From a virus, in the IMG/VR virus record IMGVR_UViG_3300037847_002934, positions 1 to 26,173 of that record: DNA of 26,173 nt. One strand, written 5' to 3'. Positions 23,925 through 26,173 of the stretch are shown here, piece after piece. Under the pieces are notes generated by a model. It ran no database searches, was not told where the DNA came from, and saw only the letters and a program-made list of their open reading frames with translations. Made by a program: the position numbers and the translations under genes. The stretch's first letter is position 1; the number at the start of each line of letters is the position of its first letter.

Positions 23925-25178
23925 TTAGTACAGCCTGTAACTGGTGGTGCCGAGGGTTTCGGGTTTTGCCAAGTTGAATTGTTGGAGGCATAAGTAGCCG
24001 AAGGCGTCGAATGCGTGGTCTACGCCTAAGTTTTTGTTGGGGAGGCCGGTGCCTGGGGCGTAGGTGAGGGTGCGGAGGGCTTTGATCAGTTCTTTGCAGC
24101 GGGGGTGGATTAGGACGCGGCGCGTTCCAGACGCATCTAGTAATCCGGTGTTGACGGCGGTGATTTTGTCGCGGATTTTCCAGGGGGAGCGGGGGGATTG
24201 GACGTTGAAACCGCTGCGGCGGAGGATTGCGTGGTCGGTTACGCCGACTCCGCTGGTTTTGCGGGCTCCGCCAGTTGGGTCGGGGCAGGCGATGATTCGT
24301 CGGTCCACGCCATAGCGGCGGGTTACTTCTTCTGCGAAGTCCCAGGTGGTTGCGCCGCCGGTGAGCATTATTTCGTCGAAGACGTAGAGGTTTTGGTCGT
24401 GTTTGACGGCGACGATGCCGCTCATTGGGTCAACGTTGAAGTCCACGCCTAGGAGCAGGGGTTGGATGGAGATGTCTTTTGCGGTGGTGGATATGTTGTC
24501 GTCGGAGAAACTTATGGCGACGAGGCCGGTTAGGTTCTCGAAGCTGGCTTCAAATTCTTGGCGGAAGGTTCGTTGGTCTAGTTGTGCGCGAGCGGCTTCA
24601 ACTTCTGTGGGGCTGACGTTACCGCCTTCGATGGTTGTGAAGCTCCAGCGCTTCCATAAATTGCTGGTGTCTTCTTCGACGAAGCACCATAAGTCGTAAA
24701 ACCAGCTGGCGGTGCCGTCGGGGGTTGAGATGAATAGGGCCCAGCCTTCTTTGTCGGCTAAGGCGGGTCTTATGACCTCGAACCAGACCTCGGCGTCCAT
24801 GAATGCGGCTTCGTCGAGAACTACCCCGCTGAGGCTGCGGCCACGCAGGGCCATGGCGTTTTCAGTGCCTTTTAGTTCGATTGTTGAGTCGTTTATTAGG
24901 TCCAGGCGGAGGTCGGTTTCGTTCTTTGTGCGGATGTATTCCTTAGGGACGATCTTTTTTAGGGTCTTCCAGGCGATGTCTTTCGCCATGCGGTAGGTGG
25001 GGGCGCAGTAAAAGAAGGTTTCACCGGGGCGTTCCAGGGCTTTGGTGAAGAGTTCGACGCAGGAGAGGTAGGACTTGCCGAAGCGGCGGCCTGCTACGAG
25101 GACTCGGAATCTATTTTTTGCGCTGAATACTTCGCCTTGCGCGGGACGAAGACTTAGGTCGAGTGTTTTTGTCGCCAA
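23925..25178 (-). CDS. terL: Terminase large subunit
   Basis: A 417-residue protein. ATPase part: Walker A AGRRFGKS (29-36), the segment YCAPTYRMAKDIAW (57-70), Walker B VVLDEAAFMD (119-128; D122, E123) and the coupling motif STP (151-153). Nuclease part (RNase H fold): LGVDFNVDPMSG with D246, the second acidic site around D300 (ACPDPTGG), and GVDHAFDAFGYL with D388/D391. All key acidic residues are present, so it looks intact. The protein packs DNA into the head through the portal. The gene has a striking strand bias: on the plus strand G far exceeds C (for example 25 G against 12 C in the line at 24001), unlike the capsid gene. Confidence 0.95.
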   Translation of the reverse strand: MATKTLDLSLRPAQGEVFSAKNRFRVLVAGRRFGKSYLSCVELFTKALERPGETFFYCAPTYRMAKDIAWKTLKKIVPKEYIRTKNETDLRLDLINDSTIELKGTENAMALRGRSLSGVVLDEAAFMDAEVWFEVIRPALADKEGWALFISTPDGTASWFYDLWCFVEEDTSNLWKRWSFTTIEGGNVSPTEVEAARAQLDQRTFRQEFEASFENLTGLVAISFSDDNISTTAKDISIQPLLLGVDFNVDPMSGIVAVKHDQNLYVFDEIMLTGGATTWDFAEEVTRRYGVDRRIIACPDPTGGARKTSGVGVTDHAILRRSGFNVQSPRSPWKIRDKITAVNTGLLDASGTRRVLIHPRCKELIKALRTLTYAPGTGLPNKNLGVDHAFDAFGYLCLQQFNLAKPETLGTTSYRLY

Positions 25179-25187
25179 AGAGCGGAT

Positions 25188-25631
25188 TTACTCGGGTTTT
25201 TCGATCTTAACCTTAATTTCGGGTAATGTGCTACTTACTTCTGGTTGGTCGCAGCCGACCATACGGGCCAGGGAATCGAGAACGTTTGCGGCGGTTTGCA
25301 TTTGGCCGCGTTTGATGGCTGAGTTGTAGAGGCGTGAGCGCATTGAGAAGATTCGGGAGGCCATTTCCTCGCGTTCGCGGTCAAAATCTTCGCGATTTAG
25401 CGCTTGGACGGCTTTCCAGTCGCGGAATGCGGTGGCACGTCCCACCTGTTCTTTTGATGCGTGGTCGAGAACAAGTTGGAGGGCAGGAAGTCCTTCGAGT
25501 TGACGGCGGTACAGCCGCATGATGCGTGCTTCCTGGATGTCCTTCGGGTTCTTAGGACCACCGAATCGTTTTACTTCTTTGGGTTCGGAGGTGTTTTCAT
25601 CCATAGCAAAAGGCACGACCTTTTCGGACAC
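25188..25631 (-). CDS. terS: Terminase small subunit (putative)
   Basis: A 147-residue protein from a GTG at 25631 (an ATG at 25604, MDENTSEP, is an alternative; neither has a strong ribosome site). It lies nine bases before terL. The content is helical and charged: NPKDIQEARIMRLYRRQLEG, then LVLDHASKEQVGRATAFRDW (a helix-turn-helix-like stretch, about 55-75), REDFDREREEMASRIFSMRS and QMQTAANVLDSLARMVG (C-terminal oligomerisation helices). Small terminase subunits recognise the packaging site and are poorly conserved. The call rests on position, size and helix pattern. Confidence 0.72.
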   Translation of the reverse strand: MSEKVVPFAMDENTSEPKEVKRFGGPKNPKDIQEARIMRLYRRQLEGLPALQLVLDHASKEQVGRATAFRDWKAVQALNREDFDREREEMASRIFSMRSRLYNSAIKRGQMQTAANVLDSLARMVGCDQPEVSSTLPEIKVKIEKPE

Positions 25632-25659: not shown

Positions 25660-25735
25660 GGTGCTCTTTTAAACAGGGGGTGTGCTACATTGTGTTTGCT
25701 CTTCAACCCCTGCCCCCCGGTAGCACAATAGAAAA

Positions 25736-25768
25736 GTTTGGCGGTATTTATTTAAGTTCCCCGCAAAC
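25736..25768. repeat. Imperfect inverted repeat with an A/T-rich loop
   Basis: GTTTGGCGG (25736-25744) pairs with CCGCAAAC (25761-25768) except for one unpaired G. The intervening 16 bases are A/T-rich (TATTTATTTAAG). It could be an operator or a packaging or replication site; nothing decides between these. Confidence 0.35.
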
Positions 25769-25831
25769 CGCTAGGGTATGTGCGATTTGCTACCCCACCC
25801 CGTCACATGTAGCACATAGATTTGTATCACA

Positions 25832-25863
25832 TTGACAGACAGGGTGGCAGGATGTAGTATAAT
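25832..25863 (+). promoter_or_regulatory. Sigma-70-type promoter, rightward
   Basis: A perfect -35 box TTGACA (25832-25837) is followed by TAGTAT (25855-25860) at a 17-base spacing, or by a perfect TATAAT (25858-25863) at 20 bases. Either would direct transcription to the right, away from the late genes. The spacing ambiguity lowers confidence. Confidence 0.55.
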
Positions 25864-25929
25864 AAAGAAGTGAGGGGGAGAGGCTTAGCCCTTACTCTCA
25901 CTAGCGGGTCTGGCATTTTCAGCCGGGTC

Positions 25930-25940
25930 TGTGCTACAAT
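25930..25940 (+). promoter_or_regulatory. Extended -10 element within the fourth repeat
   Basis: TGCTACAAT (25932-25940) fits an extended -10 (TG, one base, then TACAAT). No good -35 is seen at the correct distance. It would start a rightward transcript with a leader of about 190 bases before the ATG at 26134. Confidence 0.4.
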
Positions 25941-26133: not shown

Positions 26134-26173
26134 ATGAACAAAACGACTCAGACAACATTCAAAGGACTCAGCG
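26134..26173 (+). CDS. Possible rightward gene, cut by the window edge
   Basis: An open frame starts with ATG at 26134 (MNKTTQTTFKGLS) and runs to the window end. It is the first plausible ORF downstream of the rightward promoter elements. No Shine-Dalgarno sequence is found directly upstream, so the start is uncertain. No family can be assigned from 13 residues. Confidence 0.35.
   Translation, partial: MNKTTQTTFKGLS

Follow-up and report, generated by a model that had tools for sequence, protein, structure and literature searches.

The stretch analysed here (the window) is an entire IMG/VR entry of 26,173 bases, in which a putative small terminase gene (terS), the large terminase gene (terL) and late genes for portal, major head protein, a tape-measure-like protein and a central tail fibre all run leftward, and a gene with its ATG at 26134 runs rightward. 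The initial annotation had described a divergent start at this place, with four copies of the 8-mer TGTGCTAC in 257 bases (plus, minus, minus, plus) and one of them overlapping an extended -10 element. The divergence was confirmed and all four copies were found where and on the strands it had placed them. The features are as follows, with related sequences referred to by their G and L handles.

23925-25178, minus strand: terL, large terminase (phrog_2, 8e-43; Terminase_6N, 9e-16)
25188-25631, minus strand: putative terS, small terminase, preceding terL; predicted helix-turn-helix and long helices
25227-25234, plus strand: fifth copy of TGTGCTAC, within terS (3' part) and antisense to it
25681-25689, plus strand: TGTGCTACA, near-palindromic TGTRSYACA, word copy 1
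25705-25763, minus strand: conserved block GGGGAACTTAAATAAATA...TGTGCTACCGGGGGGCAGGGGT, defined by alignment; candidate terminase recognition/packaging site
25720-25727, minus strand: TGTGCTAC within the conserved block, word copy 2
25808-25816, minus strand: TGTGCTACA, word copy 3, lineage-specific and lying upstream of the block
25832-25860, plus strand: second rightward promoter candidate, TTGACA-N17-TAGTAT
25930-25940, plus strand: TGTGCTACAAT, extended -10 element of the predicted rightward promoter, word copy 4; -10 hexamer TACAAT at 25935-25940
26134-26173, plus strand: beginning of the rightward gene, truncated at the record end, running on in L006 and related to a 92-aa protein of G001

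Relatives of the 92-aa protein lie at the corresponding place in other close records. Annotated phages showed no DNA similarity to the region, the phage collection searched held no close named relative of these phages, and Rfam gave no match at gathering thresholds. A limited literature search returned nothing about the promoters or the packaging site of these phages, nor anything relevant to TGTGCTAC. The best named relatives of terL are approximately 40-44% identical and include those of Vibrio phages and cyanophage S-2L. Because a Prochlorococcus single-cell contig carries a terL 81% identical to that of the window, and because the GC content of terL relatives ranges from 34 to 57%, the hosts are likely marine picocyanobacteria.

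The initial annotation had staked its reading on the word being rare elsewhere in the genome and retained in relatives, and the counts went in its favour on both. Outside the four copies (25681, 25720, 25809 and 25930), just one further exact copy (25227) was found in 26,173 bases, where chance predicts 0.78 +/- 0.94; four copies in 257 bases have a Poisson probability of about 1e-10 before correction for approximately 100 windows. One-mismatch forms were not enriched in the record (15 observed, 21 expected), so that only the exact word stands out. Across 19 close-relative records (G001-G016 and G023-G025) there were 93 copies of TGTGCTAC against 7 of the reversed control word, although these are not 93 independent sites because several of the records are near-identical or overlapping; a larger sequence pool yielded 142 distinct contexts. 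When 8-mers were ranked by over-representation, counting a word and its reverse complement as two ranks, TGTGCTAC stood 13th in the window and 28th, 21st, 8th and 5th in G001 (42 kb), G003, G013 and G014, respectively, these four relatives being 13-42 kb long. It did not rank among the top over-represented 8-mers of G017-G019, which are more distant, and in G020-G022 its over-representation was weak. A host motif was considered and set aside, as the enrichment was inconsistent in cyanobacterial DNA (11 copies against 4 of the control in a Prochlorococcus single-cell genome, 4 against 57 in a freshwater cyanobacterial bin).

Copy 25930 reads TGTGC-TACAAT, with TG at -15/-14, a TAnnnT hexamer and T at -7, which bears out the overlap with an extended -10 that the initial annotation had remarked on (TGTGCTACAAT). 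No clear -35 is present for this copy in the window, whereas TTGAC is found at other members of the family; the same position carries the allele TGTGCTATAAT in G013/L086 and TGGACA-N17-TACAAT in G014/G015. Copies of the word in G001 outside the terS region lie upstream of an SSB-like gene (34444), a ribbon-helix-helix operon (37250) and the DNA polymerase region (38053). The SSB-like gene of G001 has TTGACA-N16-TACCTT with TGTGC immediately before TAC, and its TTGAC is retained in the distant G010, G017, G018 and G019, with TACTAT, TACAGT, TAGTTT and TAGCCT as candidate -10 hexamers. Alleles of the ribbon-helix-helix promoter include TGTGCTACGGT, TGTGCTACTGT, TGTGCTACATT, AGTGCTACATT and TGTGCTATTGT, and those orthologous to window positions 25855-25860, where G001-type relatives have TTGAC/TGTGC-type promoters, run from TGTGCTACACT and TGTGCTATACT through TGTATTACAAT to a plain TATATT without TGTGC. 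Across these orthologous promoters (SSB-like, ribbon-helix-helix, DNA polymerase region and rightward gene) the alleles thus drift but keep T-12, A-11 and T-7, the bases that sigma-70 requires, and both the SSB-like promoter and most ribbon-helix-helix promoters are preceded by TTGAC at 15-17 nt. As a separate observation, the 5' leader of the SSB-like gene (G001 ~34402-34440 and orthologues) holds a conserved GCACCGGGCAAnnnGCCCnCAGCA, in which a short GGGC/GCCC stem-loop appears possible by eye.

After removal of terS, block, 25681-type and coding copies, 57 contexts were left, still including 25809-type copies; T at -7 was present in 46 of these 57 and a TTGAC-type -35 at 15-18 nt in 16, compared to T at -7 in 0/22 block copies and 2/21 of the 25681 copies in majority orientation, counts that describe the classes rather than blindly test them because the grouping rules were written after the sequences had been seen. 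The comparison supports copy 25930 as the extended -10 of a sigma-70-type promoter for the rightward genes. Host RNA polymerase carrying a sigma-70-type factor would recognise a TRTGnTAnnnT element of this kind, and 25930 would belong to a promoter family that also serves other early genes of these phages.

The initial annotation had also suggested that the copies form a family of phage promoters, and this stood for 25930 and for the copies elsewhere in relatives. Extended to all four words, firing in both directions, the suggestion is very improbable. While 25930 fits it well, and 25681 in the orientation of the window reads TGTGC-TACATT, neither 25720 (TACCGG) nor 25809 (TACATG) has T at -7, and in most relatives the 25681 site lies in the other orientation, followed by TACACC and with no -35, so that it is promoter-like only in the lineage of the window. 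By these signals 25681 and 25720 are not promoters.

An alignment of 33 distinct clade sequences upstream of terS gave these two copies a different setting. Read towards terS, the consensus of the block is GGGaACTTAAATAA.Ta..gC.AaAc.T.TcTA.TGTGCTAcC, followed by GGGGGyAGGGGTc; TGTGCTA, within which 25720 falls, is present in 33/33, and the base after it is C in 31 sequences and G in the other 2. GGGAACCTA...TGTGCTAGGGGGCAGGGGTC, exact or slightly altered, is found in relatives whose terS shares 61-70% identity. In a sister clade (L009, L012-L016, L020, L021 and L034) terS is reversed, so that it and terL run in opposite directions, yet GGGGAACTTAAAcATATATC is preserved and most members also have a GGGGGCAGGGGTC-like box (by eye). 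A terminator-like hairpin, GCCCCC...GGGGGC followed by AAAAAA, was also seen by eye after the end of the sister-clade terS, upstream of terL. On the terS side of the block, TGTRSYACA is found in all 33 sequences in one orientation or the other (a regular expression matched 30, and the remaining three are visible in the alignment), as TGTGCTACA in most, TGTACTACA in four and the inverted TGTAGCACA in five, these five (L006, L086-L088 and L090) being the window's own sub-lineage. Because inversion in place is tolerated, 25681 reads as a symmetric binding site rather than a promoter, and protein binding to sites of this palindromic type is likely. Copies 25809 and 25930 are confined to the same sub-lineage, in which the 25809-type site is inverted in L087/L088 and has an additional neighbouring copy in L086/L090. 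The fifth copy, inside terS, covers codons AGT AGC ACA that are frozen in 33/33, which is no more than suggestive, since approximately 11 of the 64 columns that can be compared show no variation in any sequence.

The conserved block is most likely a terminase recognition or packaging site, a reading drawn from its position, its conservation and its independence from the reading direction of terS; a conserved non-coding block lies beside terS in 33/33 sequences and also in distant relatives. Contig ends gave no sign of a cos cut, the ends of the 27 contigs matching the block not being piled up there; cellular DNA would not show such ends. The assignment of terS is itself putative, based on position and on the predicted architecture of helix-turn-helix plus long helices (mean pLDDT 79). 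Profile searches gave no family match for the protein, no homologue was found in named phages, and a Foldseek search of the model against the PDB returned nothing below E 0.001, the first five hits including two phage G20c small-terminase chains with E above 2. A conserved early protein (L160:11830-12180 in G001, and orthologues), predicted to form a helix-turn-helix and a helical pair, aligns with terS (hhalign probability 72.5, E 3e-5) and is a possible terS paralogue; the phages thus seem to carry a second copy of a terS-like helix-turn-helix protein in the early region.

The initial annotation's other proposal, an operator array switching between rightward and leftward genes, was not supported for the four words taken as a single array: only the sub-lineage has 25809 and 25930, 25681 and 25720 lie beside and inside the packaging-like block, and the candidate repressor considered below does not co-vary with the word. 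The four copies comprise one extended -10, two copies in the conserved putative packaging region and, beside that region, one lineage-specific palindrome. Upstream of terS in L091, L093-L098 and others, dyad pairs of the form GTAKC-AAAT-GMTAC (GTATCAAATGATAC, GTAGCAAATGCTAC), about 41 bp apart, flank a G-rich box, and quite different direct-repeat arrays occupy this intergenic place in L009 (~terL-815 to -630, in units of ~29 bp around CTATTGCAACTGAGAATCACTCTCA) and L062 (~terL-750 to -620). The palindromic copies and the dyads could together form a late/early switch operator unrelated to packaging, since the dyads lie between the divergent promoters and, in G014, G015 and G004, adjoin the rightward promoter at its -35 TTGACT. 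The dyads are degenerate in the window, however, and the most conserved copies (25681 and 25720) are on the terS side, in or beside the block and away from the promoters, which makes such an operator unlikely.

That the same exact 8-mer occurs in both the promoter and the block classes would be an awkward coincidence if the jobs were unrelated, and a common binding protein would explain it better. One phage-encoded repressor, of ribbon-helix-helix or terS-like helix-turn-helix type, might bind TGTGCTAC everywhere, covering early -10s, marking the terminase region and shutting early genes off late in infection. The ribbon-helix-helix protein was taken as the first candidate because of its similarity to phage repressor families (phrog_876, 3e-5) and because its own promoter contains the word. 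Full palindromes TGTGCTACnGTAGCAC(A/C) in L114, G013, G015 and L090, and the C found at -13 and often at -10, which sigma-70 does not require, also speak for a common binder. Such palindromes were seen in the early region far from terS (G013 14796, G015 10248, L114 ~2590). Against this, the promoters lose the TGTG part and retain the -10 core and -35, and a second ribbon-helix-helix protein is present also in G020-G022, which are poor in TGTGCTAC. For the ribbon-helix-helix protein, the three residues predicted by analogy with Arc to contact DNA are E,T,R in G001, E,K,Y in G013 and Q,K,T in G003, the word being common to all three. This protein is therefore unlikely to be the common reader and was rejected as such, its contact residues not co-varying with the word. 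One common regulator of all copies is not supported, and a single repressor acting at every copy appears rather unlikely. A related reading, in which one phage protein, possibly of the terS-like helix-turn-helix type, reads the word at early promoters and in the packaging block, is quite improbable; if true, packaging onset and early-gene shut-off would be coupled through one DNA word.

A different 8-mer, CTGGAACG (with CTGGAGCG and CTGGTACG), is the most over-represented in these phages (window, G001 and G020-G022), with 12 copies in the window where 0.9 are expected (for example at 25030-, 24123-, 23197-, 13096-, 9560- and 6991-) and 72 in a pool of four where 5.9 are expected. It is strongly strand-polar regardless of gene direction (4 on the plus and 32 on the minus strand of G001), is densest around a PD-(D/E)XK nuclease gene, and numbers 309 against 90 control copies in the freshwater cyanobacterial bin. 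It may be a Chi-like or other polar motif.

Taken together, we favour, with modest confidence, a reading in which the word serves two jobs, 25930 representing a sigma-70 promoter family and 25720 and 25681 belonging to a putative packaging block whose palindromes are bound by protein. Copy 25720 would then be part of the conserved block in front of terS, with 25681 as the flanking near-palindromic 9-mer, and 25681 and the lineage-specific 25809 would most likely be bound by a dimeric DNA-binding protein, terS or another. The promoter word can serve to annotate early transcription across many environmental contigs, and the block offers a concrete place to seek the packaging start.

Phage operator arrays between divergent promoters, of the lambda OR type, likewise place repeated words between divergent gene sets, but here the array as such is not conserved, since 25681 and 25720 alone are constant, and no co-varying regulator was found. 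Known cos/cosB and pac sites include the R sites of lambda cosB and the pac sites of SPP1 and P22. The candidate block was not matched to any known cos or pac sequence, but like them it is non-coding and conserved, lies next to terS and has short symmetric sites that recur, with an extra copy inside terS. Extended -10 sigma-70 promoters have the consensus TRTGnTATAAT. The predicted promoters described here differ in that the -10 often has TAC rather than TAT and that C is nearly always found at -13; like known extended -10 promoters, 25930 and the early copies have TG one base before TAnnnT within a T-R-T-G run, and like sigma-70 promoters the early copies of TGTGCTAC often have a TTGAC -35 at 15-17 nt. 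The promoter and block elements are both of known kinds.
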